Part shown: piece after piece, positions 22,043-39,363 of the stretch
Layout of the letters: the number at the start of each line of letters is the position of its first letter
How positions within the stretch are numbered: the stretch's first letter is position 1
Origin: Gemmatimonadota bacterium
GTDB lineage: Bacteria > Gemmatimonadota > Gemmatimonadetes > Gemmatimonadales > Gemmatimonadaceae
Length of the DNA: 64,000 nucleotides
Direction of reading: 5' to 3'
NCBI GenBank assembly: GCA_021413975.1
Contig: JAIOPJ010000039.1
Span: 1-64,000, forward strand
The notes under the pieces: model-generated
Database searches by the model: none
Seen by the model: the letters and a program-made list of their open reading frames with translations, nothing else
What the model was told of the DNA's origin: nothing
Translations under genes and position numbers: made by a program

Positions 22043-22058
22043 TGCAGGGGTCGTGCCA
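22043..22058 (-). promoter_or_regulatory. sigma-54 promoter element upstream of flhA
   Basis: Minus-strand TGGCACG-N4-CTGCA, with GG and GC separated by exactly 10 bases, close to consensus TGGCACG-N4-TTGCA. It is part of a shared three-part architecture with 22072-22098 and 22155-22169. Confidence 0.75.
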
Positions 22059-22071
22059 CTGGAGGAACGCT

Positions 22072-22098
22072 GTTAACTCGTTCTCACATAATAGGTTA
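22072..22098 (-). promoter_or_regulatory. conserved IHF-like element between dyad and sigma-54 promoter (flhA)
   Basis: A 27-base A+T-rich element. On the minus strand it starts TAACCTATTA and ends GAACGAGTTAAC. It aligns with elements at 27638-27664, 34093-34119 and 39271-39297, sharing an AA-N4-TTR core (CAA in the other three). This resembles the IHF consensus WATCAA-N4-TTR. Confidence 0.6.
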
Positions 22099-22154
22099 GG
22101 TCACTATCACGAGGGCGGAAGAAATCGCCTAGTCCGGCGGTGGATCGGTCCGCG

Positions 22155-22169
22155 CGGCACGATTTGCCG
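22155..22169 (-). promoter_or_regulatory. activator dyad upstream of flhA
   Basis: CGGCAC-GAT-TTGCCG, 11 of 12 arm positions matching the consensus CGGCAA-N3-TTGCCG, centred ~112 bp upstream of the sigma-54 element. It lies between the flhB stop and flhA. Confidence 0.65.
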
Positions 22170-22185
22170 AGCGCGGTCGGCACGA

Positions 22186-23277
22186 TCAGCCGCGCGCGCT
22201 ACCGCGCCAGGCGCCGCGCTGCGTGCGCGAGCGGTAGACGTAGGCGAGGATCTCGGCGACGGCCATGTAGAGCTCGATGGGGATGACCGATCCGACCTTC
22301 GCGGCCTTGAAGAGGGCGCGCGCGACCGGGACGTTCTCGACGATCGGCACCCCCGCCTCGGCGGCGAGCTCCTTGATCCGTTCCGCGACCTTGTCCTGTC
22401 CCATCGCGACGACGACGGGTACCGGGGCGTCGGCGTCGTCGTACTGGATCGCGACGGCGATATGCGTCGGATTGGTGATCACGACGCTGGCCTTGGAGAC
22501 ATCCTTGAGCATCTGGCCGAACGCGACCTCGCGGGCGAAGCGGCGGCGCGCCGACCGGATGAACGGGTCGCCCTGCTCCTCCTTGGCCTCGCGCTTCACC
22601 TCGTCCTTGCTCATGCGGAGGCTCTTCTCGAGCTGGAAGCGCTGCCAGAAGTAGTCGGCGCCGCCGACGAAGGCATAGGCGAGTCCGACCGTGAGGAGCA
22701 GGCGGCCGACATGCACCGCGACCCAGGGCGCGAGGGCGCCGGGGCCGGCCTGCGAGAGCGCCGCCGTGGAGGGGATGGAGAGGGCGAGCGCCTTCCAGAG
22801 CAGTGTCCCCACCACCACGACCTTGAGCATCGCCTTGCCCGTCTCGACGAGCTGCGTCGGCGAGACGAGGCGCTGGAAGTTCTTGAGGACGTCGAGCCGC
22901 TCCCAATGCAGCTTGAGCGCCTTGCCGCTGATCTGGCCGCCCGACTGCAGCGCCGCGACGGTGAAGGTCGCGCCGGCGATCAGCAGCATGAAGGCGGCGC
23001 CCGCGGCGGCGAAGCGCGTGGTGGTGTCGCGGAGGATCGCGACCGCGCTGCCTTCGTCGAGCGAGATCGTCCCGGCGGAGGCGAGCCCGCGACCGAGCAG
23101 GTCGCGCAGGGCGAAGCCGGCGTCGTCGGAGAGCATCCTCACGCCGGCGGCGGCGGCGAGGATGGCGGCGGCGATGCCCGCTTCCTGGCTTCGCGCGATG
23201 CGGCCTTCGTCGGTCGCATCGCGCTTGCGTTTGTCGGTGGCTTCCTCTGTCTTCTCGCCTTCGTCGCCGTCAGCCAT
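22186..23277 (-). CDS. flhB: flagellar export apparatus protein FlhB
   Basis: 363 residues. The N-terminal KTEEATDKRKRDATDEGRIARSQE, four membrane segments and the cytoplasmic domain with NPTH (VITNPTHIAVAIQY) are present. Autocleavage between N and P of NPTH switches export specificity from hook to filament substrates, in concert with FliK. The C-terminus is extended by a short Arg-rich tail. It follows fliR by 6 bases. Confidence 0.96.
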   Translation of the reverse strand: MADGDEGEKTEEATDKRKRDATDEGRIARSQEAGIAAAILAAAAGVRMLSDDAGFALRDLLGRGLASAGTISLDEGSAVAILRDTTTRFAAAGAAFMLLIAGATFTVAALQSGGQISGKALKLHWERLDVLKNFQRLVSPTQLVETGKAMLKVVVVGTLLWKALALSIPSTAALSQAGPGALAPWVAVHVGRLLLTVGLAYAFVGGADYFWQRFQLEKSLRMSKDEVKREAKEEQGDPFIRSARRRFAREVAFGQMLKDVSKASVVITNPTHIAVAIQYDDADAPVPVVVAMGQDKVAERIKELAAEAGVPIVENVPVARALFKAAKVGSVIPIELYMAVAEILAYVYRSRTQRGAWRGSARG

Positions 23278-23283
23278 GGGCGG

Positions 23284-24081
23284 TCAGCGCGGGGCGCGCA
23301 GCAGGGCCGTCATGACCTCGTTGCCCATGGAGCGGACCTGCTCTCCCCAACCCGACGTGACGAGCCCGAGGAACGGGAGCGATGCGGCGAGCGAGACGAG
23401 GCCGACCGAGATCTGCACCGGGAAGGCGAGGTTCATCAGGTTGAGTTGCGGCACCGCGCGGCTCAGGATGCCGAGGCCGACGTTGGTCACGAGCGCCGCC
23501 GCGATCACCGGCGCGGCGATCTGCAGTCCGAGCGCGAACATGATGCCGCCGTCCTGCGTGAGCACGCGGAGTCCGCTCGCGAGATCGAGCGCGGCCCCGA
23601 CCGGTACGCGGGCGAAGCTCTGCGCCACCGCGTCGAGCATGACGAGGTGTCCGTTCCCGGCGAGGAGCAGTGTCGCGGCGAGGAGCGCGAACGCCTGGCC
23701 GATGACCGAGGTCTGATGGCCGCCGATCGGGTCGACGACCGCGGCACCGGAGAGCCCGATCGCCTGTCCCATGAGGTCGGCGGCGAGTTCGGCCGCGGCG
23801 ACGAGCAGCGCGGCGCCGAACCCGAGCGAGAAGCCGATCAGGCTCTCGGTGAGGAAGGTGGCCGGCGTGATCGCCGCGCCCTGCAGCGCCGTGGCCTGCG
23901 CGGCCGGCTGCATGACGATCGTGAGCACGAGCAGGATCGCGGTGCGGACCGGCATGGGGACCATCTTCGACGAGAACATCGGCGCGACCAGGATCAGTCC
24001 GCCCACGCGGCAGGCGGAGAGGATCGTGACCTCGGCCGACCCCGGCGCGATGAGGTCCCAGGGGCTCGTGCCCACGCTCAT
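23284..24081 (-). CDS. fliR: flagellar export apparatus protein FliR
   Basis: 265 residues, almost entirely hydrophobic, with RVGGLILVAPMFSSKMVPMPVRTAILLVLTI near the N-terminus and LAANLP-like segments through the centre, as in FliR. It forms the export-gate core with FliP and FliQ. Its ATG overlaps the fliQ stop (ATGA). Confidence 0.94.
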   Translation of the reverse strand: MSVGTSPWDLIAPGSAEVTILSACRVGGLILVAPMFSSKMVPMPVRTAILLVLTIVMQPAAQATALQGAAITPATFLTESLIGFSLGFGAALLVAAAELAADLMGQAIGLSGAAVVDPIGGHQTSVIGQAFALLAATLLLAGNGHLVMLDAVAQSFARVPVGAALDLASGLRVLTQDGGIMFALGLQIAAPVIAAALVTNVGLGILSRAVPQLNLMNLAFPVQISVGLVSLAASLPFLGLVTSGWGEQVRSMGNEVMTALLRAPR

Positions 24082-24347
24082 CGCGGCATGTCGGCGAGGC
24101 CGATCAGGATCGTGCGCGTGTAGGCGACGAGCGATTGCAGCATCCAGGGCAGCGAGAGCACGAAGACGAGCCCGATCACCACGAGCTTGGGCACGAACGC
24201 GAGCGTCTGCTCCTGGATCTGCGTGAGCGACTGCAGGATGCCCATGATCAGGCCGACGATGAGCGCGGCGATCAGGAACGGGGCGGCGAGTTGCAGCGCC
24301 ATGAGCAGCGCCTGGCGCGCGAGATCGAGGACGAACTGGTCGTTCAT
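24078..24347 (-). CDS. fliQ: flagellar export apparatus protein FliQ
   Basis: 89 residues, the standard length, with two membrane hairpins (LAAPFLIAALIVGLIMGILQSLTQIQEQTLAFVPKL and VIGLVFVLSLPWMLQSLVAYT). IQEQTLAFVPKL is the conserved FliQ/SctS loop. It begins 10 bases after the FliO-FliP frame. Confidence 0.96.
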   Translation of the reverse strand: MNDQFVLDLARQALLMALQLAAPFLIAALIVGLIMGILQSLTQIQEQTLAFVPKLVVIGLVFVLSLPWMLQSLVAYTRTILIGLADMPR

Positions 24348-24357
24348 GGCGCGTCCC

Positions 24358-25617
24358 CTAGCGGAAGCCGGCCACGAGGCTCTGCGTGATCAGGCCCCAC
24401 CCGTCCACGAGGACGAAGAGCAGGAGCTTGAACGGCAGGGCGATCATGGTGGGCGGGAGCATGAACATGCCGAGCGACATGAGCACCGAGGCGACGACCA
24501 CGTCGATGACGATGAACGGCAGGAAGAGCGCGAAGCCGATCGCGAACGCGGTGCGCAGCTCGCTGATGACGAAGGCGGCCATGAGCGTGATGAACGGCAC
24601 CTGCTCGCCGGCCACGACGGGCTGGCGCGAGAGCCGCACCATCCGCCGCACGTCGGCGGGACGCGTCTGGCGCAGCATGAAGTCGCGCAGCGGCACGGTG
24701 CCCTTCTCGAGCATCTCGACCTGCTGGATCCGGCCGTCGAGCCAGGGCGTGATCGCCTCCTGATTCAGGCGCGTCATGGTGGGGGCCATGACGAAGCCGG
24801 TGAGGATCAGCGCGAGACCGGCGATGAGTGGGGCGGGGGGCGAGGTCTGCGTGCCGAGGGCCTGCCGCAGGAAGTAGAGCACGACGAGGATGCGCGTGAA
24901 TCCCGTCGTCATGAGGACGAGCGTCGGGAGCAGGCTCAGCAGGCCCATCATGATGACGACGCCGACGGTGCCGTTCATGCGGAGCCCCTCGCCGCCGTTC
25001 TCGGCGCCGAGCCGCAGGTCCATGCGCGGGGCGAGGCGTTCGACGACCGTGGCCGCGGTGGCGGCGGGGTTCTGGATCGCGCCGGTGCTCGTGCCGGTCG
25101 CGACCTTGCCGGCGGCACCGGGCGTCGACGCGGTGATCGGGGCGGCGGCCGGGGCTGCCTGCGCACCGAGCGGCGACGAGGTGGCGACCGCGAACAGCAG
25201 CAGCAGTGCCGCTCCCTTGAGCCCGACGGCGTGCGCGAACGCGCGCCTGAAGATCTCGGTGCCCGCAGGGCGCGGCGTGGCGACGGGGGCGTAGGTGTTG
25301 TCCGCGGTCCGCTCGACCACCGTGTCCGTCCTGACGCCGCGCGCGGCGAGCATCTGGAGGGCGTCGTCGTCCTCGACCTGCATGAGCCGATGCACGCCGC
25401 CGTCACCGATCGAGACGAGCATCACGCGCGATCCGACGCGCAGCAGGGCCACACCCTGCCGAGGTCCCAGGGCCGTGCGCTGCAGCACGTCGAGCGGGGC
25501 CGCGGTGCGGTCGCGCGACGCGCCCATGCCGAAGCGGCGATACGCACGGCCGAGGCCGGCGACGAGCGCGAGGATCGCGACGAGCGCGAGCAGGACGCCG
25601 ACGTAGGTGAGGAGCAC
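24358..25617 (-). CDS. fliP: FliO-FliP fused in one reading frame
   Basis: 419 residues from a GTG at 25617, with no stop between two normally separate proteins. Residues 1-~105 look like FliO: one membrane helix (LLALVAILALVAGLG), then PLDVLQRTALGPRQGVALLRVGSRVMLVSIGDGGV. Residues ~125-419 are FliP: a signal-peptide-like segment (GAALLLLFAVATSSPLGAQA), an Ala/Pro-rich spacer and the canonical core (LPTLVLMTTGFTRILVVLYFLRQALGTQ, VPFITLMAAFVISELRTAF). FliP is the export gate pore; FliO assists its assembly. Internal ATGs occur at residues 79 and 89, but none lies just before the FliP signal segment. Confidence 0.93.
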   Translation of the reverse strand: MLLTYVGVLLALVAILALVAGLGRAYRRFGMGASRDRTAAPLDVLQRTALGPRQGVALLRVGSRVMLVSIGDGGVHRLMQVEDDDALQMLAARGVRTDTVVERTADNTYAPVATPRPAGTEIFRRAFAHAVGLKGAALLLLFAVATSSPLGAQAAPAAAPITASTPGAAGKVATGTSTGAIQNPAATAATVVERLAPRMDLRLGAENGGEGLRMNGTVGVVIMMGLLSLLPTLVLMTTGFTRILVVLYFLRQALGTQTSPPAPLIAGLALILTGFVMAPTMTRLNQEAITPWLDGRIQQVEMLEKGTVPLRDFMLRQTRPADVRRMVRLSRQPVVAGEQVPFITLMAAFVISELRTAFAIGFALFLPFIVIDVVVASVLMSLGMFMLPPTMIALPFKLLLFVLVDGWGLITQSLVAGFR

Positions 25618-25620
25618 GGA

Positions 25621-27024
25621 TTACGGCTCGAGCGCTGCGGTGGGCAGCTGCGCGACGATGCGGCGCAGCCGGAACCCGTAGTGCTCGTTCACCACGACGA
25701 CCTCGCCTTCGGCGAGCTTGAGGTCGCTCACGTAGAGATCCATGGGGTCGCCCGCGAGACGGTCGAGCTGGAGCACCGAGCCGCGCCCGAGGCGCAGGAG
25801 CTCGCCCACGGTGACGGTGGAGCGCCCCACTTCGATGCGGACCGGGAGCGTGATGTCGATCAGCGCGGCGAAGGGCACCTCGCCGCCGGCCAGGAGCGCG
25901 GCACCGAGATCGGCGAACTCCGGTGACTGATGGTCGGTGGCGAGCGCGGCGAGGCCGGCGTCGGCATCGGTGGACGGAGCGGTCATGTGTCGGACCTCGG
26001 GCGCGGTGCGACCGCGCGGTAGTGGGACCAGGGAGTCGAAGGCGGGACCATTCAGGACGTCGGTGACGCTCACGGCGCGCAGCTGCTTCACGCGCCCGGC
26101 CTGCACGCGGAACCGCGGCTGGCCGCCGACGATCAGTTCGAGCGGCGTGCCCATCGGGATGCCGGTCGCGATCGTCGTGCCCGCCGCGAACCGCAGCAGG
26201 TCGCGCATGGGGATGCGGAACTCGGGGAGTCGTGCGATCGCCGGGACCGTCGTCATGCGCAGCGACTGCTCCGTCTGCTCGCGCGATGTCTTGCGCTCGG
26301 CCTCGGTGCCGACCGGGTCGCTGAGGCGGCGGTCCGCGGAGCGCGTGAAGAACTGCTCGACGACGTTGAGCGGGAGGCAGATCGAGAGGAGGCCGTTGCC
26401 GCCGGCGAACTTGGCGTTGACCGTGGCGACGAGGCACGGGACGTCACGCTCGACCGCCTGCATGATCTCGGGGATCGACTCGAAGCCGGTGACCGCGAGC
26501 TGCAGCTTGGCGTGATCCCACCATACCTCCATGAGGTCCGAGACCGCGCGGTCGGCCACCGTGTCGAGCGCCAGGCGCTCGATCGGCGAGACCACCCGGT
26601 CCAGGATCGTCGGCGCGCCGCCGCCACCGAAGAGGCGGTCGATCAGGAAGTAGGCGAGCGAGGGGTTGAAGTCGACGACGCCCTGCTGCGACCCGGCGTC
26701 CTCGATCCGCACGAGGAAGCTCGCGCTCGGCGTGTTGAGCGTGAGCAGGTACTCCGCGTACGAGACCTGCTCGACCGACTGCAACCGGAGATCGATCGTG
26801 TCGCGGAGCCGCGAGACGAGCCAGCCCTCGAGCGAGCGCACCAGGCGCTCGTACATGGCCTCGAGCGTGCGCAGGCGGTCGCGCGAGACGCGCGCGGGAC
26901 GGCGGAAGTCGTAGAGCTGGACGTCGGCATCGCCGGCGACGGTCGCGGTGGCGGCACCGCCGCCGCCCTTGAGGAGGCGGTCGATGTCGTCCTGCGAGAA
27001 CGCGGCGGCTGCTGGTGTGCTCAT
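25621..27024 (-). CDS. fliM: flagellar switch proteins FliM and FliN in one reading frame
   Basis: 467 residues. Residues 1-~335 are FliM: N-terminal SQDDIDRLLKG (the CheY-binding motif), the CheC-like middle domain (VDFNPSLAYFLIDRLFGG) and a first SpoA domain (~275-325). Residues 347-467 match FliN: a linker and a second SpoA domain (DITLPVRIEVGRSTVTVGELLRLGRGSVLQLDRLA). No stop separates them. M347 (ATG at 25986) is preceded by GAGG at an 8-base spacing, so a separate ~121-residue FliN may be made by internal initiation. Together they form the C-ring that controls rotation direction. Confidence 0.94.
   Translation of the reverse strand: MSTPAAAAFSQDDIDRLLKGGGGAATATVAGDADVQLYDFRRPARVSRDRLRTLEAMYERLVRSLEGWLVSRLRDTIDLRLQSVEQVSYAEYLLTLNTPSASFLVRIEDAGSQQGVVDFNPSLAYFLIDRLFGGGGAPTILDRVVSPIERLALDTVADRAVSDLMEVWWDHAKLQLAVTGFESIPEIMQAVERDVPCLVATVNAKFAGGNGLLSICLPLNVVEQFFTRSADRRLSDPVGTEAERKTSREQTEQSLRMTTVPAIARLPEFRIPMRDLLRFAAGTTIATGIPMGTPLELIVGGQPRFRVQAGRVKQLRAVSVTDVLNGPAFDSLVPLPRGRTAPEVRHMTAPSTDADAGLAALATDHQSPEFADLGAALLAGGEVPFAALIDITLPVRIEVGRSTVTVGELLRLGRGSVLQLDRLAGDPMDLYVSDLKLAEGEVVVVNEHYGFRLRRIVAQLPTAALEP
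25984..25998 (-). promoter_or_regulatory. fliN: internal ribosome site and ATG for FliN
   Basis: GAGG (25998-25995), 8 bases, then ATG (25986-25984), in frame inside the FliM-FliN gene and exactly at the domain boundary. Confidence 0.55.
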
Positions 27025-27033
27025 GGTCGACGA

Positions 27034-27531
27034 CTACTGGATGACGAACTGGGGGAGCAGGACCCGCTTCACGACGCCTTCGGGGAAGAGCGCGCCGATG
27101 GCGGCGGCGAGGTCGGTCTTGAGCGCCTCGCGTCGTGCGGGGTCGCCGAGCTCCTCGATGGTGCGGCCGCTGAGCAGGTCGACGATCCGGTCGCGGATCT
27201 CGGCGTCGCGCGCGGCGAGCTCCTCGGCCGCGCTGGCGTCCTTCACCACGATCGCGGTGGTCACGAGCAGGAAGCGTGCGCCGTTCGTGCTCGCCGGATT
27301 CACGACGAGGTTCTCGATCTCGTGCACCGAGATCGGGCCGGTCGGTTCCGCCGGCTCGGCTTCGACGACCGCCTCGGGGGCGTGGCCCATCTTCGGCGCG
27401 ATCACGAACCCTCCGACGGCGCCGCCGAGCAGGAGTCCGGCGAACGCTCCGATCATGATGCGCTTCTTGCCTCCCGCCGGGGCGGCGGGGGCGTCAGCGA
27501 CGGCGGGTGCGGGGGTGGCGGCAGTGGCCAT
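27034..27531 (-). CDS. fliL: flagellar basal-body-associated protein FliL
   Basis: 165 residues: a short Ala/Pro-rich cytoplasmic N-terminus with GGKKR, one membrane helix (IMIGAFAGLLLGGAVGGFVIA), and a periplasmic FliL domain (SVHEIENLVVNPASTNGARFLLVTTAIVV, then DRIVDLLSGRTIEEL, ending VLLPQFVIQ). FliL surrounds stators and supports torque. First gene of the sigma-54 unit that continues into fliMN and the export genes. Confidence 0.94.
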   Translation of the reverse strand: MATAATPAPAVADAPAAPAGGKKRIMIGAFAGLLLGGAVGGFVIAPKMGHAPEAVVEAEPAEPTGPISVHEIENLVVNPASTNGARFLLVTTAIVVKDASAAEELAARDAEIRDRIVDLLSGRTIEELGDPARREALKTDLAAAIGALFPEGVVKRVLLPQFVIQ

Positions 27532-27595
27532 GGGTCCGAGAGCGGCGAAGGTTGTCGAGTGGATCGGCGGATCGAGCTCCGTCGGGAGCAGTTAA

Positions 27596-27611
27596 AGCAG
27601 GAGCTGGGCCA
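27596..27611 (-). promoter_or_regulatory. sigma-54 promoter element upstream of fliL
   Basis: Minus-strand TGGCCCA-GCTC-CTGCT with the exact 10-base GG-GC spacing, 65 bases before the fliL start. It is nearly identical to the flgB element, including a following TTAA. Confidence 0.72.
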
Positions 27612-27637
27612 CGATCTCCAGGCACCGGCGCGGAGCT

Positions 27638-27664
27638 GGTAAACTCATTGTCAGTAAGCACTTA
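27638..27664 (-). promoter_or_regulatory. conserved IHF-like element (fliL)
   Basis: Minus-strand TAAGTGCTTACTGA then CAATGAGTTTACC, aligning with the equivalents at flhA, fliI and flgB; core CAA-N4-TT. It lies between the sigma-54 element and the dyad. Confidence 0.6.
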
Positions 27665-27731
27665 GGGGGAACATGTCGGGCGGCTCGCACGCAGAAGCGC
27701 TCGGCAAAAGCGAGCCCGCCGCCGGACGCAT

Positions 27732-27746
27732 CGGCAAAGGTTGCCG
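27732..27746 (-). promoter_or_regulatory. activator dyad upstream of fliL
   Basis: A perfect CGGCAA-AGG-TTGCCG dyad, ~135 bp upstream of the sigma-54 element. Extra half-sites lie at 27702-27707 (CGGCAA) and 27765-27770 (TTGCCG). The 280-base gap between flgE and fliL holds only these regulatory elements. Confidence 0.7.
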
Positions 27747-27811
27747 TGCGACCGACGGCGGGCGTTGCCGCACCGCTGATCTCCTACCGTCTACGACCTA
27801 CCACCTGATCC

Positions 27812-29152: not shown

Positions 29153-29160
29153 GTGGACCT

Positions 29161-29201
29161 CGGAGGAAGGACGAAGGAAGAAGGACGGAGGAGGAAGGAA
29201 C
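29161..29201 (-). repeat. polypurine/polypyrimidine tract before flgE
   Basis: About 40 bases of GGAGGAAGG-type repeats on the plus strand, so a C/T-rich mRNA leader directly before the flgE ribosome site (GAGG). It resembles the GGATGAAGG strings in the tRNA spacers. Confidence 0.7.
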
Positions 29202-29213
29202 GGTCGCGGTGCC

Positions 29214-29486: not shown

Positions 29487-29509
29487 GCGGTGACCTGTGG
29501 GATGGGGGA

Positions 29510-32142: not shown

Positions 32143-32627
32143 GCGTCGGTCTCCACGGCATCGGCATCCTGGTCGGAACGGCGGGCGTGCCGTTCGACGG
32201 CGAGGGCGTCCATCGCCGTCCGTTCGTGACGGGTGTGGGATTGCCGCCATTCCTCCTCGCGCCGCTCGCGCAGGCGCGAGATGACGCGGCGGGATTGCAT
32301 GGCGACGTTGAGTTCACCGCGGACCAGGTCCACCTGCGCCTCGCGCGAGGCGACTTCCTGCTCCGCGACGTCGAGGTGGGCGTCGAGCGAGGCGATCAGG
32401 CGCTCCTTCTGGTGGAGCGCGCCGACGTGCTGCGCGGTGGTGTGCGCGCGGGCCAGGTCGGCACCGCTCGCCTGTCGCACCGCGGCCAGCGCGTCCATCG
32501 CCGAACGCGCGTCGGCGGCGGCTTCCGATGCGGCGCCGAGCTGGCCGGCGATCGCCTGCTCGCGCTGGTGGCGCAGGTCCAGCACGCGCTGCAGTCCGAA
32601 GGAGAAACGACTCGAGGGAGCGGTCAC
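32139..32627 (-). CDS. fliJ: flagellar export chaperone FliJ
   Basis: 162 residues, a long coiled coil beginning FSFGLQRVLDLRHQREQ, as in FliJ. FliJ sits in the FliI ATPase ring and couples it to FlhA. ATGA-type overlaps link it with fliI upstream and the MotE-like gene downstream. Confidence 0.88.
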   Translation of the reverse strand: MTAPSSRFSFGLQRVLDLRHQREQAIAGQLGAASEAAADARSAMDALAAVRQASGADLARAHTTAQHVGALHQKERLIASLDAHLDVAEQEVASREAQVDLVRGELNVAMQSRRVISRLRERREEEWRQSHTRHERTAMDALAVERHARRSDQDADAVETDA

Positions 32628-34015
32628 GCGGTCATCCGGTGGAGGGTCGGTTGCGGGTTCACGCGCGGGGCGGCACCGGGGCGGGGGACCGCCGCCGCAC
32701 CGCGCACGCCGATGTCGGCGAGCTGGGCGATCGTGCGGTCCATCGGCGTGTAATCCTCCGGCGGCTGCTGGAGCAGGTCGAGGATCGGGCTGCGGAGTTC
32801 GATCGCGGCGTCGACCAACGGATTGGATCCCCGCTGGTATGCCCCGACGAGGATCAGGTCCTCCTTCTCGCGATAGGCGGCCTCGAGTCGCTGCAGCATC
32901 CCCGCGTGGTCGCGCTGCGTGCGCGTGATCACGTGGTCACGCACGCGGCTCTTGCTGTCCAGGATGTCGATCGCCGGATAGTGGCCCGCGCTGGCGAGCC
33001 GCCGTGTGAGCACGATGTGACCGTCGAGGATCGAACGGCTCGCGTCCGCGACCGGTTCGGAGAAGTCGTCGCCGTCGACGAGCACGGTATAGATGCCGGT
33101 GATGCCGCCGACGCTGCTGTTGCCGGCGCGCTCGAGCAGGCGAGGGAGATACGCGAAGACCGAGGGCGGATAGCCCTTGGTGGTGGGCGGCTCGCCCACC
33201 GCGAGACCGATCTCGCGCCAGGCCATCGCCACGCGCGTCACGGAGTCGACCATCAGGAGCACCTGTTTGCCCTGATCCCGGAACCACTCGGCGATGGCCG
33301 TGGCGACCAGCGCGCCGCGGGCCCGGAGCAGCGCGGACTCGTCGCCGGTGGAGACGATCACGACGGAACGGGCGAGGCCCTCGGCCCCGAGGGCGTTCTC
33401 GATGAACTCGCGCACCTCGCGGCCACGCTCACCGAGCAGGGCGATCACGTTCACCTCGCTCTCGGCCTTGCGGGCGATCATGCCGAGGAGCACCGACTTG
33501 CCGACGCCGGAACCGGCGAAGATGCCGACGCGCTGGCCGCGGCCCACCGTGAGCAGACCATCGATCGCGCGGACCCCGGTGACGAAGGGCGTGTCGATGC
33601 GCTCGCGTTCGAGCGGGTTGGGCGGATCGGCGGAGAGGGGGACGCGCTTCTCGAACTCGATCTTGCCCAGGCCGTCGATCGGCTCCCCGAGTGCGTTCAC
33701 CACGCGGCCGAGAAGCCCCGCACCCACACGCACGCCGAGGTTGCGGCCCAGGTCCGAGACGGTCGCGCCGGGATGCATGCCCTCGATGTCACCGAGCGGC
33801 ATGAGCAGCGCGCCACGCTCATGGAACCCCACGACCTCGGCGAGCACCGAGCGATCGTCGGAGAGACTCGTCACGCGACAGAGCGCGCCCATGCCGAGCT
33901 CCATCCCGCTCGCTTCCATCACGAGTCCCACGATCCGCGTCACCCGCCCGAGGGGGCGGAGACGCGGGATCTCGGGAAGACGATCCTGGAGGGCGTTGAA
34001 TGTGGCTGCGACCAT
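32624..34015 (-). CDS. fliI: flagellum-specific ATPase FliI
   Basis: 463 residues from the ATG at 34015. It has Walker A (FAGSGVGKSVLLGM), the F1-beta-like core (ERGREVREFIENALG, LLMVDSVTRVAMAWREIGLAVGEPPTTKGYPPSVFAYLPRLLERAG) and the C-terminal substrate-binding region. It energises export together with FliH and FliJ. A sigma-54 element lies 38 bases ahead of the start. Confidence 0.97.
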   Translation of the reverse strand: MVAATFNALQDRLPEIPRLRPLGRVTRIVGLVMEASGMELGMGALCRVTSLSDDRSVLAEVVGFHERGALLMPLGDIEGMHPGATVSDLGRNLGVRVGAGLLGRVVNALGEPIDGLGKIEFEKRVPLSADPPNPLERERIDTPFVTGVRAIDGLLTVGRGQRVGIFAGSGVGKSVLLGMIARKAESEVNVIALLGERGREVREFIENALGAEGLARSVVIVSTGDESALLRARGALVATAIAEWFRDQGKQVLLMVDSVTRVAMAWREIGLAVGEPPTTKGYPPSVFAYLPRLLERAGNSSVGGITGIYTVLVDGDDFSEPVADASRSILDGHIVLTRRLASAGHYPAIDILDSKSRVRDHVITRTQRDHAGMLQRLEAAYREKEDLILVGAYQRGSNPLVDAAIELRSPILDLLQQPPEDYTPMDRTIAQLADIGVRGAAAVPRPGAAPRVNPQPTLHRMTA

Positions 34016-34052
34016 GGGAGCGATTGGGTTGCGAGTGTACGCGAGAGGGAAA

Positions 34053-34068
34053 AGCAACTCGCGTGCCG
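34053..34068 (-). promoter_or_regulatory. sigma-54 promoter element upstream of fliI
   Basis: Minus-strand CGGCACG-CGAG-TTGCT: the strongest -12 of the four, exact 10-base GG-GC spacing, 38 bases before the fliI ATG. Confidence 0.78.
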
Positions 34069-34092
34069 CCTGTCGATTCGGTCCGCAGAACT

Positions 34093-34119
34093 CGTAACCC
34101 GTTGTTCGGTAGGAGGTTA
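34093..34119 (-). promoter_or_regulatory. conserved IHF-like element (fliI)
   Basis: Minus-strand TAACCTCCTACCGAA then CAACGGGTTACG, with CAA-N4-TTA core. Its ends (CGTAACC and GGTTACG) also form an inverted repeat. Confidence 0.6.
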
Positions 34120-34158
34120 CGATGTCGGACCGGGTCATCGTCCGAGGGTCGCGGCGCT

Positions 34159-34173
34159 CGGCAAAGTGTGCCG
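34159..34173 (-). promoter_or_regulatory. activator dyad upstream of fliI
   Basis: CGGCAA-AGT-GTGCCG (11 of 12 arm positions), ~105 bp upstream of the sigma-54 element, with a further CGGCAA half-site at 34176-34181, just outside the 3' end of fliH. Confidence 0.65.
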
Positions 34174-34196
34174 TGCGGCAATCGCGACCGAGCCGC

Positions 34197-34883
34197 TCAG
34201 GCGTCGGTGCCGGTGAGACGGCGGAAGACCTGCTCGAGCGCGAGGTCGACGCGACCATCGACGATCCGATCGCGGCCCTCGACCACGCACCCACCGCGTT
34301 CCACGCGCGAGTCGGCGATCCACGTGACATCGGGATAACTCGAGTCGCCGGTGAGCAATGCGTGGTCCGCCGGGTTGAGCCGAACGCGGAGCGTGCTCTC
34401 CTGCGGGAACTCGGCGATCGCATTGCGGACGAGTCCCCTGATCTGCGACGGGTCGAGCTGCACCTCGCGCTGGATCACGTGCCGCGCGATCGCGCAGGCG
34501 AGCGCGGTGAGGTTCTCCTCGAGGACCCCGGCGTAGAGCTCGGAGTGCTTCTGCACCGTGTCGGCCGCCCGCGAGACCGCGTCCACCGCATCGACGACCC
34601 GCCGATCGGCGGAGACCTGGGCCTCGACGCGTCCTGCCACGCGGCCCTCCTCGAACGCGGCGCGCCGTGCCTCGGCGACCGCGCGCACGTGCTGCTCCTG
34701 CATCTCCTCGCGCAGCGCCGTGAGCTCGGCTCCCGAGCAGCCGAGCTCGAAGCCGAAGCCGCTCGCGCCCCCCTGGGCGGTCGGATTGAACTCGGCCAGG
34801 TTCCAGGGCACGCTCGCGATCGGCGCGCGCGGGAACGGCGCCGCGGGGCTCGAGGGCGGGGTGACGCGACGCGGTGCGCTCAT
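34197..34883 (-). CDS. fliH: flagellar assembly protein FliH
   Basis: 228 residues: a Pro/Ala-rich N-terminus containing a WNLAEFN segment, a long coiled coil (LREEMQEQHVRAVAEARRAAFEEGRVAGRVEAQ) and the V/A-type ATPase E-subunit-like C-domain (LEENLTALACAIARHVIQREV, RVRLNPADHALL). It regulates FliI. The ATG overlaps the fliG stop. Confidence 0.92.
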   Translation of the reverse strand: MSAPRRVTPPSSPAAPFPRAPIASVPWNLAEFNPTAQGGASGFGFELGCSGAELTALREEMQEQHVRAVAEARRAAFEEGRVAGRVEAQVSADRRVVDAVDAVSRAADTVQKHSELYAGVLEENLTALACAIARHVIQREVQLDPSQIRGLVRNAIAEFPQESTLRVRLNPADHALLTGDSSYPDVTWIADSRVERGGCVVEGRDRIVDGRVDLALEQVFRRLTGTDA

Positions 34884-35911
34884 GCGACGACGTCGTCGCT
34901 GGATCCGGAGAGCACGAGTTCCCCGCTCTCCTCGAGCGTGCGGATCGCGGCGATGATCGCGGCCTGCGCCTTCTCGATATCGCTCCGCCGCTGCGGGCCG
35001 AGGTTCTCGATCTCCTCCTGCAGTGACGAGACCGCGCGGGAGGACATGCCTCCCATGATCTTCTTCGTGAGCGGTTCGCTGGCACCCTTGAGTGCGAGCG
35101 CCAGAGTCTTGACCTCCACCTCGCGGAGGAGGCGCTGCACCGACTTGTCGTCGAGCTTCGCGACGTCCTCGAAGACGAACATGAGGTCGCGGATCTGCTG
35201 GGCGAGCGCGGCGTCGCGATGACTCACGCCTTCGAGCAGCGACTTCTCGGCCGACCCGGGGACGAGCGCCAGGATCGCCGCGACCGCCTGCGGGCCACCG
35301 GAGGTCGAGAGACCCTGCTGGGTCTCCATGTCCTCCGTCCAGATCGAACGCTCGATGAGCTGCAGCATGTCGGGCGAGACCTTCGCCATCGTCGCCATGC
35401 GATAGACGACCTCCGAGCCGAGGTCCGCGGTGAGCTCCTTGAGCACGGTCGCGGTCTGGGCCGGATTGAGGTGCGCCAGGATCAGGGCGATGGTCTGCGG
35501 ATGTTCGTTGCGCAGCATGGTGCTCAGCTGCGCCGGATCGGCACTGCGCAGGCGATGCAGTCCCGCCGTGTCGGCGAGCTGCGTCTGGATGCGCTTGAAG
35601 ATCGCCGCCGCCTGCGGTCCGCCGTAGGCGCGTTCGAGCACGCGCTGCGCGTACTCGAGGCCGCCATGGGCGATCGAGTCCGCGACCGTGAGCAGGTTCA
35701 TCCACTCCTTGAGCACATCCTCCGCCAGCGACGACTCGACCGCGTTGAGGCGCGCGATCTCGACACCGATCGCCTCCGACTCCTCGGGGCTGAGGTTCTT
35801 CTGCAGCTTGGCCGCCGGCTCGGCACCGACCACCATGCAGAGGATCGCGGCCTTCTGGCGACCGTTGAGGTCGGCGAGCTTGTGCGGCCGGTTGGCTGAG
35901 GCTTGGCTCAT
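34880..35911 (-). CDS. fliG: flagellar motor switch protein FliG
   Basis: 343 residues with N-, middle and C-domains. GRQKAAILCMVVGAEPAAKL starts the FliF-binding N-domain, NEHPQTIALILAHLNPAQTATVL carries the EHPQ surface, and the C-terminal helix set (LIMFVFEDVAKLDDKSVQRLLREVEVKTLALALKGA) carries the torque-generating charges. It couples the MS ring to the C-ring. Confidence 0.96.
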   Translation of the reverse strand: MSQASANRPHKLADLNGRQKAAILCMVVGAEPAAKLQKNLSPEESEAIGVEIARLNAVESSLAEDVLKEWMNLLTVADSIAHGGLEYAQRVLERAYGGPQAAAIFKRIQTQLADTAGLHRLRSADPAQLSTMLRNEHPQTIALILAHLNPAQTATVLKELTADLGSEVVYRMATMAKVSPDMLQLIERSIWTEDMETQQGLSTSGGPQAVAAILALVPGSAEKSLLEGVSHRDAALAQQIRDLMFVFEDVAKLDDKSVQRLLREVEVKTLALALKGASEPLTKKIMGGMSSRAVSSLQEEIENLGPQRRSDIEKAQAAIIAAIRTLEESGELVLSGSSDDVVA

Positions 35912-35976
35912 GACGGGTCAGGCAGGGACGGTGGGTGAGCGCAGGGCGGTGGACGCGGAACGGGGCGCGGAGCGGA

Positions 35977-37563
35977 TCAGCCGTCGCGCAGCCAGGCGCG
36001 CATGAGCTTGGCCGCCACTTCGGGCTGCTGTTCGACCGACGCGAGCACCTGGTCGCGCATCGGGTTGTTCGGCACGTGGATCATCGGGACGGAGCGCTGT
36101 GGGAAGGGCTGGCCCCCGGGGAGCGTGCCACCGGTCGCTCCGGCCGACTGGAACTGCGCCGCGAAGGCCGCGGCGTTGCCGCCGCCCTCGCCGGGGAAGT
36201 AGCCCGTTGGCATGCCGGCGGCGGCGAGTTGCGTGACGCTCTCGGTCGTCTTGCCCGCCGCGCGCAGCGTGAGCATCGCGATGATGAAGGCGAAGAGGAT
36301 GCCGAGGGCGCTCAGCGCCGGGCGCTGCACCGACTGGAGCGTCTCGATCGTCGTCGGCGGTGCGGCGTCGGGCAGCGTCGGCTTCGGGACGAAGGGGAGC
36401 ATGGAGACCGTGACGACGTCACCGCGCGTCTCATCGAAGCCCACGGCACTCTTGACGAGCGTCTCGACCTGCGTGCGCAGCGCGGTGGAGTCCACGGGCG
36501 GGGCGACCGGGGCGGCGGCGCCGTTTGCGCCGGCGGCGGCTACCGCCGGTGCCGGCGTCGCGAGGAGCACGGCGACCGAGAGCCGCTTGAGCGATCCGAC
36601 CGCCGACGAGACGCTCTCGGTGGCGGTGCTGTTCGAGTACGAGGCGGCACTCTGCACCGAGGCCGCGCCCCCTTCGGCGCCGGGGATGACCTCCGACTTC
36701 TGTTCGGTCGCGACGGCCTGCTTGTCGGGATTCACGGTGACGGAACTGCGCTCGACCCGGTCGAAGCTCAGCGTCGCGTTCACCTGCACGCGCGCATTGC
36801 CGGCGCCGAGCACGGGGGCCAGCAGCTTCTCGACCTTCTCGCGCAGTCCCTTCTCCGTCTCCATCTGCACCGAGAGCTGGCGGCTCGAGAGCGAGGTCAT
36901 GCTGCCTTCCTCGTCGCCTTCGCTGAGCGTGCGCCCCGCGTCGTCGACGATCGTCACATGATCGGTCGTGAGGCCCTCCACGCTCGCGGCGACGGTGCGC
37001 GCGATGCCGCGCACCACATCGGCGCCGATCGCGTCGGTGCCCTGCGGCTCGAGCACCACGCTCGCCTCGGCCGGCAGTGGCGCGACGCCGTAGTTCTCGG
37101 CCGAGTTCATCACGATCTGCACCTTGGCGCTCTTGATCCCGCGCATCCCGCCGATGGTGCGTTCGAGTTCGCCGGCGAGGGCGCGTTGGTAGTTCACCTG
37201 CTGGGTGAGGTCCGTCTGACCCCAGCTCGGCTGGTCGAAGAGTTCGAATCCGGGGCGATCGGTCGAGGGCAGCACGCCGGCGCGGGCGAGTGCCACGCGC
37301 GCCTTGGGCACGTCGTCCGACTTCACGAGCACCGTGCCGCCTCCGCTGCCGAGCTTGAACTCGACGCCGGCCTGCGTGAGGCGGTCCGTGAGCGGCCCCA
37401 CGTCGCCGATCGGCACGTCGGCGAAGGCGGGGATCCAGGTGGGGGCGCTCGCCCACCGGGCGAGGCCGAAGACGCCGACCGCGGCCGCGAGGCCGACGAG
37501 GAGGATCGTCGCGCGGCGCGGGCCGCCGATCTTGTCGAGCAGGGAAAGCAGGGCAGGGGGCAT
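35977..37563 (-). CDS. fliF: flagellar MS-ring protein FliF
   Basis: 528 residues. The N-terminal membrane helix (ATILLVGLAAAVGVFGLARWA), YscJ-like ring domain (VNYQRALAGELERTIGGMRGIKSAKVQIVM), a Ser/Ala-rich variable loop, second helix (LGILFAFIIAMLTLRAA) and a C-terminal FliG-binding tail (VAAKLMRAWLRDG) are all present. It is the first ring assembled. A 65-base gap without notable features separates it from fliG. Confidence 0.95.
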   Translation of the reverse strand: MPPALLSLLDKIGGPRRATILLVGLAAAVGVFGLARWASAPTWIPAFADVPIGDVGPLTDRLTQAGVEFKLGSGGGTVLVKSDDVPKARVALARAGVLPSTDRPGFELFDQPSWGQTDLTQQVNYQRALAGELERTIGGMRGIKSAKVQIVMNSAENYGVAPLPAEASVVLEPQGTDAIGADVVRGIARTVAASVEGLTTDHVTIVDDAGRTLSEGDEEGSMTSLSSRQLSVQMETEKGLREKVEKLLAPVLGAGNARVQVNATLSFDRVERSSVTVNPDKQAVATEQKSEVIPGAEGGAASVQSAASYSNSTATESVSSAVGSLKRLSVAVLLATPAPAVAAAGANGAAAPVAPPVDSTALRTQVETLVKSAVGFDETRGDVVTVSMLPFVPKPTLPDAAPPTTIETLQSVQRPALSALGILFAFIIAMLTLRAAGKTTESVTQLAAAGMPTGYFPGEGGGNAAAFAAQFQSAGATGGTLPGGQPFPQRSVPMIHVPNNPMRDQVLASVEQQPEVAAKLMRAWLRDG

Positions 37564-37577
37564 CGTGTCGTCTCAGC

Positions 37578-37958
37578 TCAGCTCTGCATGTTGATCAGGG
37601 TGCGGTAGGCCTCGACGACCTTGTTCCGCATCTCGATGGCGAGATCGAGGGCCAGGCCGGCCTCCTCGCTCGCCGCCATCACGGTATGGAGTTCCACCGG
37701 CTCGCCGGCGGCGAAGCGTTGTGCGAGGTTCGCGCCGCGCTCACGCGTGTCGCTGATCTCGTTCATGGCGCGCGAGAACGTGTCCTTGAAGCTCGGCCCC
37801 GCGTCGCCGATCTCGCCGGCACCGCCGGCGCCGTTCCCGTTGCCGGAGCCCGGCAGCACCGGCACCACGATCCCGCGCGCCGCGTCCTGCGCGCGCTGGG
37901 CGATCTGCGTGAAGTTCGACGAGAGGCTCGAGCCGAGCGGACCGATGGGCGCGGTCAT
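37578..37958 (-). CDS. fliE: MS-ring/rod junction protein FliE
   Basis: 126 residues. The C-terminal half is FliE-like (FKDTFSRAMNEISDTRERGANLAQRFAAGEPVELHTVMAASEEAGLALDLAIEMRNKVVEAYRTLINMQ). The N-terminus has a short Gly/Asn insert (GSGNGNGAGGAGE). It joins the rod to FliF and is needed before rod export. Confidence 0.95.
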   Translation of the reverse strand: MTAPIGPLGSSLSSNFTQIAQRAQDAARGIVVPVLPGSGNGNGAGGAGEIGDAGPSFKDTFSRAMNEISDTRERGANLAQRFAAGEPVELHTVMAASEEAGLALDLAIEMRNKVVEAYRTLINMQS

Positions 37959-37965
37959 CTCCGGC

Positions 37966-38307
37966 TCAGCCGCGCAGGTTGAGGCGGCCGCCGCGCGCCG
38001 GCAATGACGGCGTGGTCGCGATGCGGTGTCCGTAGCTCAGCGGCCCCATGGCGTCCTCGCGAGCGAAGAAGGCGCGCTCGTCGGAGGTGAGGACCTTCCA
38101 GAGTTCGGGATCGGTGCCCTTGGGCGGGCGGAGCGACGCGGTCTCCTCGTCGGGCGTCGACGGGCGCTCGATCAGGATCGGCTGAGTGCGGGTCGGGAAG
38201 GTCGGACGCACGCCCGGCATCGTGGCCGGCGTGCTCGTCTCGAGGCCGTATGGGGAACGGGGGCTGACGGTGCGGGGCATCGGTGCGCCGAGTCCGTTGG
38301 TCTGCAT
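37966..38307 (-). CDS. unknown small protein between flgC and fliE
   Basis: 113 residues, no membrane helix or signal peptide. The N-terminal ~60 residues are Pro/Thr/Arg-rich and look disordered. The C-terminal part has a compact, likely conserved block (DPELWKVLTSDERAFFAREDAMGPLSYG). It is packed between flgC (20 bases) and fliE (7 bases) in the first flagellar operon, where no known flagellar gene normally sits. Function unknown; a rod or export accessory is a contextual guess. Confidence 0.7.
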   Translation of the reverse strand: MQTNGLGAPMPRTVSPRSPYGLETSTPATMPGVRPTFPTRTQPILIERPSTPDEETASLRPPKGTDPELWKVLTSDERAFFAREDAMGPLSYGHRIATTPSLPARGGRLNLRG

Positions 38308-38327
38308 CGGTGAGTCCAGGGAGGGGG

Positions 38328-38828
38328 TCAGATGTCGATCGCGCGACGGAGCATCGCTTTCATGGAGGAGAAGGCGGTCGCGTTCGCTTCGTACAGCCGG
38401 CGCGCTTCCATGAGCGTCACCAGTTCCTGCGTCGGGTCGACGTTCGGCATGCGCACGTAGCCCGCCGCATCGGCGTCGGGGTGCGTGGGGTCGTAGATCA
38501 GGTCGCCGAGCGAGGCGTCGCGGGCGACGCCGGTGATGCGCACGCCGCCTTCGACGGGAGCGTAGTCGCCCATCGCCTGACCGGCGGGTCCGTATGCGGG
38601 AGCGGGTTCCATGGTGACGACCCTCCGTTGATACGCCCCGCCCTCGGCGGTGCGCGTGGTCTCTGCGTTGGCGAGGTTCGCGGTGGCGATCTCCATGCGG
38701 AGCCGCTGCGCCGAGATGCCGGTGCTCGCGATCGCGAGGCCCTGGAACGGCGCCGGCGTCGGACGATCCGGTGATCGGCCGACGAACGGGAGGAGCAGCG
38801 GGAGCGACGGGGGCTTGATCGACGTCAT
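38328..38828 (-). CDS. flgC: flagellar proximal rod protein FlgC
   Basis: 166 residues. After a ~25-residue Pro-rich N-terminal extension the FlgC core begins (FQGLAIASTGISAQRLRMEIATANLANAETTRTAEGGAYQRR) and ends with VRMPNVDPTQELVTLMEARRLYEANATAFSSMKAMLRRAIDI. A later start would remove the extension, but no ATG or GTG is obvious there. Confidence 0.94.
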   Translation of the reverse strand: MTSIKPPSLPLLLPFVGRSPDRPTPAPFQGLAIASTGISAQRLRMEIATANLANAETTRTAEGGAYQRRVVTMEPAPAYGPAGQAMGDYAPVEGGVRITGVARDASLGDLIYDPTHPDADAAGYVRMPNVDPTQELVTLMEARRLYEANATAFSSMKAMLRRAIDI

Positions 38829-38850
38829 GAAGTGGGTTCCTCAGTCGTGG

Positions 38851-39153
38851 TCAGCGGTCGCGGATCGCGCTCTTGAGAGAGGCATAGGCCTTCTCGAGGA
38901 GCTTGGCAGTGGCTTCGAATCGGAGCTGTTCGTCGGCGAGTGCGACCATCTCGGCCTCGACGTCCACCGGTCCGGTGACGCCGTCACCGGGAACGCGGGG
39001 ACCCTGACTCGCGCTCGTGAGCGCGAAGCCGTCGCCGTTGAGCGAAGCCCGTGCGACGCGCGACTGGATCCCGCGCACGCGGGCCTGGTTGTCGTCCAGG
39101 GCCTGCTTGAGCGATGTCGCGGTCGTGGTGCGGTCGACGAATCCGAAGAGCAT
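38851..39153 (-). CDS. flgB: flagellar proximal rod protein FlgB, divergent
   Basis: 100 residues from the ATG at 39153 (GGAG seven bases ahead); a GTG at 39198 would add 15 residues. The C-terminal half matches FlgB (DVEAEMVALADEQLRFEATAKLLEKAYASLKSAIRDR). The N-terminal half (LKQALDDNQARVRGIQSRVARASLNGDGFAL) occupies the place of the usual NIANA-TPGYK rod motif but does not contain it. First gene of the sigma-54 unit flgB-flgC-unknown-fliE-fliF-fliG-fliH. Confidence 0.82.
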   Translation of the reverse strand: MLFGFVDRTTTATSLKQALDDNQARVRGIQSRVARASLNGDGFALTSASQGPRVPGDGVTGPVDVEAEMVALADEQLRFEATAKLLEKAYASLKSAIRDR

Positions 39154-39218
39154 CGGTACTCCGCTGAGGTCGCAGGCCGGCGGGATTGCCGGACGCACGT
39201 CTCTCGGGGAGTCGTTAA

Positions 39219-39234
39219 AGCATGGGCTGGGCCA
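39219..39234 (-). promoter_or_regulatory. sigma-54 promoter element upstream of flgB
   Basis: Minus-strand TGGCCCA-GCCC-ATGCT with exact 10-base GG-GC spacing, 66 bases before the flgB ATG, almost the same sequence and distance as at fliL. Confidence 0.75.
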
Positions 39235-39270
39235 AACCGGAACGACGCCCCTTGGGGCGTCGCGCTGAGG

Positions 39271-39297
39271 CCTTAAGATATTGTGGGATAACTACTT
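39271..39297 (-). promoter_or_regulatory. conserved IHF-like element (flgB)
   Basis: Minus-strand AAGTAGTTATCCCA then CAATATCTTAAGG, with CAA-N4-TTA core, between the sigma-54 element and the dyad. Confidence 0.6.
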
Positions 39298-39348
39298 GGC
39301 GCGTTCCATCGAGGCGTCGGACGGTCCACGACGCCGAGGTGCGCTGGT

Positions 39349-39363
39349 CGGCAACGATTGCCG
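39349..39363 (-). promoter_or_regulatory. activator dyad upstream of flgB
   Basis: Perfect CGGCAA-CGA-TTGCCG dyad ~129 bp upstream of the sigma-54 element, with an extra TTGCCG at 39376-39381. It lies only ~46 bases past the stop codon of the regulator gene that probably binds it. Confidence 0.72.

Follow-up and report, generated by a model that had tools for sequence, protein, structure and literature searches.

In a 64,000-nucleotide stretch of Gemmatimonadota bacterium DNA (assembly GCA_021413975.1, contig JAIOPJ010000039.1, positions 1 to 64,000; hereafter the window), the flagellar genes flhA, fliL, fliI and flgB are each preceded by three elements in the same order: a CGGCA-N5-TGCCG dyad, an A+T-rich palindrome and a sigma-54 -24/-12 element (Table 1). 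These elements, their order and spacing, their conservation in relatives and the helical phasing of the palindrome are seen in the sequence, as are a recognition helix similar to that of FlbD in the adjoining NtrC-family regulator and the single HU/IHF gene that was found in the genome. Which proteins bind, the homodimer, the bend, and the phosphorylation with its kinase are what we infer, and we consider it quite probable that the whole comprises an FlbD-type enhancer, a homodimeric IHF-like bend site and a sigma-54 promoter. The promoters would represent a variant of the FlbD type of sigma-54 flagellar promoter known from Caulobacter, in which the dyads, usually paired and ~100-170 bp upstream, would act as the enhancer for the adjoining regulator, itself probably activated by phosphorylation. 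A homodimer of a single IHF-beta-like protein would bind the 25-bp symmetric site between enhancer and promoter, always on the same side of the double helix, and the DNA bend would let the AAA+ hexamer of the activator contact the sigma-54 RNA polymerase. The order of enhancer, bend site and sigma-54 promoter, as proposed in the first-pass annotation of this DNA, appears to be conserved across the phylum.

Table 1. Promoter elements, flagellar genes and proposed enhancer-binding protein in the window.
Feature	Sequence	Position	Strand	Remarks
flhA sigma-54 -24/-12 element	TGGCACGACCCCTGCA	22043..22058	-	GG-N10-GC
fliL sigma-54 element	TGGCCCAGCTCCTGCT	27596..27611	-	GG-N10-GC
fliI sigma-54 element	CGGCACGCGAGTTGCT	34053..34068	-	GG-N10-GC
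flgB sigma-54 element	TGGCCCAGCCCATGCT	39219..39234	-	GG-N10-GC
flhA IHF-type palindrome, 25 bp		22074..22098	-	11/12; starts 40 bp upstream of sigma-54 element
fliL IHF-type palindrome		27640..27664	-	10/12; starts 53 bp upstream of sigma-54 element
fliI IHF-type palindrome		34095..34119	-	11/12; starts 51 bp upstream of sigma-54 element
flgB IHF-type palindrome		39274..39298	-	12/12; starts 64 bp upstream of sigma-54 element
flhA FlbD/ftr-type dyad	CGGCA-N5-TGCCG	22155..22169	-	exact; 111 bp from sigma-54 element
flhA second dyad	CGGCTGATCGTGCCG	22178..22192	-	one mismatch
fliL FlbD/ftr-type dyad		27732..27746	-	exact, also to CGGCAA-N3-TTGCCG; 135 bp from sigma-54 element
fliL second dyad	CGGCAACGCCCGCCG	27756..27770	-	24 bp away; one mismatch
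fliI FlbD/ftr-type dyad		34159..34173	-	exact; 105 bp from sigma-54 element
flgB FlbD/ftr-type dyad		39349..39363	-	exact, also to CGGCAA-N3-TTGCCG; 129 bp from sigma-54 element
NtrC-family response regulator, proposed enhancer-binding protein	HTH GNRTKAALLLNMSVRTLRHKLN	39409..40842	-	477 aa; receiver, AAA+ with GAFTGA, Fis-type helix-turn-helix (HTH)
flhA		19955..22030	-	
fliL		27034..27531	-	
fliI		32624..34015	-	start is ATG downstream of sigma-54 element, picked by eye
flgB		38851..39153	-	weak match, 19.6 bits; start is ATG downstream of sigma-54 element, picked by eye

Proposed enhancer dyads upstream of the flagellar genes

The four sigma-54 elements were found where the first-pass annotation had placed them, on the minus strand and with GG-N10-GC spacing, and the four dyads are present as it had written them; rpoN, whose absence it had named as a refutation, has one match in the genome. 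The dyad in its original form, CGGCAA-N3-TTGCCG, occurs exactly at two places in the 3.08-Mb genome, both in the window, compared with none for the reversed control. With up to one mismatch there are nine places, four of them the window sites, against 10 for the reversed control, so that the count alone is uninformative and it is the position that informs. The better consensus is CGGCA-N5-TGCCG, to which all four window sites are exact; it has 18 exact places genome-wide against 28 for its reversed control, and the genome-wide count is therefore not evidence. Eleven of the 14 exact dyads outside the window were inspected as loci, and five of these 11 have a sigma-54-like element (score of at least 9) 40-220 bp off; for two non-window dyads it lies within 80-180 bp, at L003 (91 bp, inside an open frame) and L083 (172 bp).

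It had been supposed that the dyad was undescribed for flagellar activators. That claim fails, and we rejected the novelty of the dyad: the FlbD (ftr) site of Caulobacter, printed as CCCGGCAxxxxxTGCCGGG in passages of PMC3333781, has CGGCA-N5-TGCCG at its core. The dyad also resembles the motif GGCAxxxxTGCC of D. vulgaris DVU1063, which the same passages place upstream of flagellar genes and liken to that of FlbD.

The position of the dyads was followed in relatives of the regulator, sought in 298 genomes of the phylum; 40 stretches beside such relatives were fetched as relative loci, and in the dyad counts the window forms one row of each promoter class. Every flagellar stretch maintains, over its own length, the gene order regulator, flgB, flgC, fliE, fliF, fliG, fliI, flgE, fliL, fliMN, flhB, flhA. 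An exact dyad lies upstream of 38 of the 97 flgB, fliI, fliL and flhA starts, but of only four of 182 control starts (flgC, fliE, fliF, fliG, flgE, fliMN and flhB); none of 29 permuted half-sites is found upstream of more than two of the 97 starts, nor is any spacer from 0 to 13 other than 5 found upstream of more than four. When 20-kb loci were pooled, the control half-site GCCGA gave 29 against 61 for CGGCA, an excess that disappeared on restriction to upstream regions.

Allowing one mismatch, the dyad is present across the phylum at flgB (26/28) and fliL (22/23), and dyad and sigma-54 element occur together at 21/28 and 20/23, respectively. Thirteen of the 40 relative loci have no flgB row: in eight the DNA downstream of the regulator copy gave no flagellar gene (L044, L045, L046, L053, L061, L062, L064 and L069), four are short or hitless (L066, L074, L075 and L079), and in L077 FlgB was undetected. 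The fliI and flhA sites are mostly restricted to close congeners, with an exact fliI dyad in four of 28 rows (the window, L041, L042 and L067) and an flhA dyad with its sigma-54 element in three of 18 (the window, L041 and L042 only). The proposal of a four-operon set sharing the dyad thus stands for the window, whereas in relatives a wide distribution is seen for the flgB and fliL sites alone; in three loci (L050, L052 and L055) the pair of dyad and sigma-54 element is found at fliF instead. A variant of the dyad made asymmetric by a right arm of TTCCG rather than TGCCG turns up repeatedly among more distant relatives (L048, L054, L057, L063, L068, L070, L071, L073 and L076).

The dyads also tend to be paired: a second dyad (at most two mismatches) lies within 10-70 bp of 34 of 43 exact dyads, compared with a mean of 5.5 and a maximum of 11 in 200 shuffles, and the distances between the two peak at 17-18 and 24 bp. 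Activators of the NtrC type use two dimer sites, which paired dyads suit.

A scan of public genomes for an exact dyad followed by TGGCAYGN4TTGC at 90-120 bp gave at least 119 stretches, 80 of which were taken as loci. Among the matches listed, 41 of the 80 loci match a flagellar protein of the window in tblastn, a count made without a random-locus control and including one locus, L120, that hits only FliI and may hold another ATPase; the other 39 gave no hit to these query proteins. The flagellar loci among these matches are in alpha- and betaproteobacteria, Planctomycetota and Gemmatimonadota, and FlbD scored over the NCBIfam cut-off in 15 of the 35 host genomes on which its model was run.

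The A+T-rich palindrome and the HU/IHF protein

The middle element was studied in 52 promoters (flgB, fliL, fliI, flhA and fliF), selected both for a dyad with at most one mismatch and for a sigma-54 score of at least 9 at 85-175 bp, a few of which are doubtful (L049 fliI). The A+T-rich element with an AA-N4-TTR core, already noted in the four window promoters, proved to be general, being present in 41 of the 52 compared with 6.2 expected, a number reached by none of 400 local shuffles. Between dyad and sigma-54 element, [CTG]AA-N4-TTR occurs in 40 of the promoters, AA and TTR at spacings other than N4 in only 3 to 12, and the IHF core CAA-N4-TTR, in the transcribed-strand reading, in 25, with a peak at N4. 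In 44 promoters the A+T content at 30-60 bp upstream of the sigma-54 element exceeds that of the next 30 bp, and in seven it is lower.

Two copies of the core 15 bp apart make up a 25-bp palindrome, TAA-N4-TTG-N5-CAA-N4-TTA, a symmetry that the first-pass annotation had not described. Scored over 12 positions as YAA and TTR, it reaches at least 10/12 at period 15 in 38 of the 52 promoters; shuffled sequences give 1.1, and the remaining periods between 8 and 33 give 0-14. In these 38 promoters the distance from its start down to the sigma-54 element is 30, 40-42, 51-54, 62-65 or 74-78 bp. The phasing at an 11-bp period has a resultant length (R) of 0.80 for all promoters, 0.90 for flgB and 0.83 for fliL, compared with 0.14 on average and 0.41 at most in 200 shuffled sets; as the promoters are mutually related, neither these nor the palindrome figures are independent trials. 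The best-fitting period tried was 11.5 bp (0.84), against 0.71 at 10.5 bp, and the same gene shows helical steps in different genomes.

IHF sites have the consensus WATCAANNNNTTR, with a CAA-N4-TTR core. The two steps at which IHF kinks the DNA are separated by 9 bp, as are the inner TpT and ApA steps of the palindrome. The asymmetric IHF consensus itself is enriched in the 52 promoters, in 10 at one mismatch or fewer (4.1 expected) and in 35 at two or fewer (25.7 expected), neither figure being reached in 400 shuffles. For comparison, two Gemmatimonadota loci were set aside from the 80 loci of the public-genome scan, leaving 78 others, mostly proteobacterial. Among these matches the same place holds the asymmetric consensus with at most one mismatch in 31 loci against 8.6 expected (0/200 shuffles), and shows no excess of the 15-bp tandem (seven, compared with 12, 9, 6 and 7 at 13, 14, 16 and 17 bp). 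With a single core counted for each promoter, the outer YAA is mirrored in 21 of 32 cores here compared with two of 29 in the other loci among the matches listed (Fisher p ~3e-6).

Exact copies of the palindrome, YAAN4TTRN5YAAN4TTR, are found in 39 of 41 relatives (own genome included), at 227 places against 27 for the reversed control, and are present in congeners without an FlhA match (G028, G171, G189 and G248). In a genome-wide test, for which 37 of 38 loci were counted, sigma-54-like elements with a score of at least 9 lie 36-68 bp downstream of the palindromes in 10 cases (at eight palindromes), compared with 1.3 expected; with a score of at least 10 there are four against 0.3, and with at least 11 none. 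Nine of the 10 fall in the same helical steps as in the flagellar promoters, the bins having been set after the period and phasing of the palindrome had been seen. Two of the eight palindromes are flagellar and have a dyad (L282 and L318), and the rest have no dyad upstream.

Three exact palindromes lie 40, 39 and 52 bp upstream of sigma-54-like elements of score 10 at G000 C5:414703, C28:99346 and C40:100584, respectively, with no flagellar hit within loci of 3 kb or shorter; these are candidate sigma-54 promoters outside the flagellar regulon.

One HU/IHF gene was found in the genome, and 40 of the 43 family genomes examined likewise have a single one, whereas other families often have two or more. 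The best NCBIfam model for the protein is IHF beta, followed by IHF alpha, with the HU models at 60.4 and 53.2 bits. All 13 family HU/IHF proteins that were read contain the segment NIEVRGFGTF, which in PDB alignments resembles IEIRGFGSF of IHF beta, unlike VQLIGFGNF of HU; outside the family, NIEIRG was seen in three of the four proteins read, the fourth (L338, from a pair of copies in G044) having INLTGFG. The best PDB match is 2iif, an IHF chain; its alpha part has VELSGFG at the position of VKLSGFG in 2iie. In IHF beta, Glu44 and Arg46 read TTR; with IHF-beta-like residues in both subunits, a homodimer would therefore want TTR at both ends, as is seen.

On this comparison of sequences we lean towards the view that the family uses a homodimeric, sequence-specific, one-gene IHF, with TTR-reading beta-like residues in both subunits and a mirror-symmetric site, YAA-N4-TTG-N5-CAA-N4-TTR, whose inner steps are spaced by 9 bp and which keeps to one helical face at sigma-54 promoters; asymmetric alpha/beta IHF, together with its site, would then be a later or parallel form. 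Several observations weigh against the homodimeric bend site proposed for the flagellar promoters. The mirroring of the inner TTR is weak (6/32 here and 2/29 in the other loci among the matches listed); the palindrome is not specific to flagella, with nine exact places in the genome itself against none for the reversed control, and with one mismatch it fades there (25 against 17); the HU/IHF protein scores below the IHF cut-offs, with 91.8 bits for beta (cut-off 115) and 87.0 for alpha (cut-off 111); and the genome is 92.7% complete, so that a second IHF gene could be missing.

The palindrome could instead be the site of a dedicated transcription factor, a co-activator or a repressor, a reading that we regard as possible though rather doubtful. 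The small number of exact palindromes would fit it, as would the N4 arms, which show a mild preference for [CG]-T-C-[GA] (74 arms of the 37 genome-wide palindromes); both weigh against a global protein, and the helical phasing with sigma-54 would suit a polymerase-touching factor just as well. However, the core of IHF sites is CAA-N4-TTR; promoters of the other loci, most of them proteobacterial, are enriched for the asymmetric IHF consensus at the corresponding place; and the palindrome is present also in congeners without an FlhA match and near non-flagellar sigma-54-like elements, for which a global protein at sigma-54 promoters fits better than a flagellar regulator.

The adjoining NtrC-family regulator

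The HTH sequences of the window regulator (GNRTKAALLLNMSVRTLRHKLN) and its relatives (NNRTKAAELLGISVRTLRNKLN) were compared with those of FlbD (GNRTHAAKILGISIRTLRNKLN), a betaproteobacterial regulator (GSRRRTAEALNMSERTLRHKLK) and other NtrC-family proteins (GNQLRAARALGLNRNTLRKRLD). The recognition helix is FlbD-like, SVRTLR here and SIRTLR in FlbD. The receiver pocket is complete (acidic pair D8-D9, D52, T80 and K102), and the acidic pair, Asp, Thr and Lys are present in all 31 aligned Gemmatimonadota regulators. All 16 FlbD-type proteins, of which one (L227) falls below the FlbD cut-off and two pass only with neighbours in frame, have lost the acidic pair, Thr and Lys; as they keep the phosphorylation Asp, the two kinds of receiver contrast a little less sharply. 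The genome itself yielded no FliX, and none of 31 genomes has one over the cut-off, a single weak match coming from G028 (21.9 bits, cut-off 25); in a control of the model on 14 genomes only Caulobacter matches.

By these comparisons the regulator is FlbD-like at the DNA and, by its receiver, FlrC/FleR-like at the input, and it is probably switched on by phosphorylation rather than by FliX. We ruled out FlbD proper on its score, the complete receiver, the failure to find FliX in the genomes searched and its place outside the FlbD clade.

The likeness to FlbD and the proposed input have points to set against them. The regulator scores 361.2 bits with the FlbD model NF050807, for which the cut-off is 750 and which is outscored here by the models for AtoC and NtrC. 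In a tree of 60 proteins the Gemmatimonadota regulators form a separate clade (100/100), joined weakly to FlbD (76/70), whilst FlbD groups with the betaproteobacterial regulators (96/93), the long branches leaving the deep order unsure. A close regulator copy is present in 17 of 218 FlhA-negative genomes, and a motif scan of the window and 15 relative stretches revealed no cognate kinase beside the regulator. A hybrid histidine kinase (PAS, HisKA, HATPase, receiver and Hpt) encoded at 52508-56443, near the flagellar cluster, is a possible partner; a similar one lies upstream of the regulator in the congener G126, the sole match among the 15 relative stretches, and another kinase is outside the window, 24 kb away (C46:64593-66707). 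A search of plasmids for regulator relatives returned mostly generic sigma-54 regulators.

The link between dyad and regulator, which earlier rested on adjacency, now appears stronger, given the FlbD-like helix and the eight loci in which a regulator copy has no flagellar neighbours. In six of these an exact dyad lies 8-125 bases past the end of the matched gene (it is lacking in L046 and L064), and the site is therefore tied to the protein. It is nevertheless conceivable, if unlikely, that an enhancer-binding protein other than the 39409-40842 product reads the dyads: the genome encodes several NtrC-family proteins (five scored matches and 53 first-look candidates), and seven FlhA-positive genomes have no regulator at the cut of ~470 bits, which was chosen by the analyst from the search output. 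Against such a protein stand the FlbD-like helix, the dyads that follow the non-flagellar copies and the way in which the regulator tracks FlhA, being present at that cut in 73 of 80 FlhA-positive genomes. Chance in a G+C-rich genome, which the genome-wide counts of the dyad at one mismatch and of exact CGGCA-N5-TGCCG, both below their reversed controls, might seem to allow, is an extremely improbable source of the dyads and phased A+T-rich blocks, and we rejected it on their position upstream of orthologous genes in relatives, the half-site and spacer specificity and the shuffles.

The seven FlhA-positive genomes without the regulator are G295 and the six of family f11 (G001, G003, G005, G007, G009 and G011), in which FlhA is found without a regulator orthologue and flagellar control may differ. 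In three of the non-flagellar loci (L044, L053 and L061) a close regulator copy is followed by an exact dyad and then by a gene for a FliA/WhiG-family sigma factor, a call made over an NCBIfam subfamily cut-off in two of them and by eye in the third; this arrangement suggests a sigma-54 to sigma-28-like cascade apart from flagella.

Other flagellar genes and relation to known systems

In the window, a FliA/WhiG-family sigma factor is encoded at 18404-19717, downstream of flhA, and a sigma-54 to sigma-28 hierarchy is therefore likely. The listed ATG of flhA (22030) is only ~14 bases from the GC of the -12 element, so that the message would have almost no leader, unless translation really begins at the ATG at ~22012. 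At 25621-27024 a single frame matches FliM (residues 9-324, below the cut-off) and FliN (residues 387-458, above it), and is likely to be a FliM-FliN fusion.

The closest parallel is the Caulobacter FlbD/ftr system; passages of PMC3096577 describe the class III and IV flagellar promoters there as needing sigma-54 and IHF and as being regulated by FlbD. The likeness lies in the dyad core, the setting of sigma-54 with IHF and the SIRTLR/SVRTLR helix, and the differences in the complete receiver (DD, D, T and K) of a regulator outside the FlbD clade, the lack of FliX over the cut-off in the 31 genomes, and a bend site that is palindromic rather than asymmetric. DVU1063 shares the GGCA/TGCC motif, but its printed spacer is of four rather than five nucleotides and its receiver, atypical according to the same passages of PMC3333781, differs from the complete one here. 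In FlrBC, FleSR and FlgSR, as outlined in parts of PMC7064773, a phosphorylatable NtrC-type regulator controls the sigma-54 rod and hook genes. The window regulator resembles these as a probable phosphorylation-type NtrC regulator of sigma-54 flagellar genes, and among the matches listed there are betaproteobacterial relatives with an RTLR/RALR helix, in genomes with the same dyad and sigma-54 element; unlike in those systems, no sensor kinase was found adjoining it. Compared with known IHF sites, the middle element has the same core and the same position between enhancer and sigma-54 promoter, but is a 25-bp symmetric palindrome that would be served by one gene rather than by alpha and beta.

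The titles and abstracts listed from the open-licence literature yielded no report of flagellar sigma-54 regulation in Gemmatimonadota, nor of a homodimeric or palindromic IHF site; in a survey of HU/IHF sequences (PMC5683647), the strings 'Gemmatimon-', 'TTR' and 'palindrom-' are absent from the main text.

The findings extend the FlbD/ftr code for flagellar sigma-54 promoters to the Gemmatimonadota, there with a phosphorylation-type receiver, so that the enhancer site seems to have a wider distribution than the control by FliX known from Caulobacter. The middle element appears to be the most interesting part, as a symmetric site of apparent IHF type in a lineage with a single IHF-like gene: one protein and one palindrome would make a simple system for the origin of IHF specificity, and the helical steps of the putative bend site in natural orthologous promoters offer a ready spacing series for sigma-54 looping.

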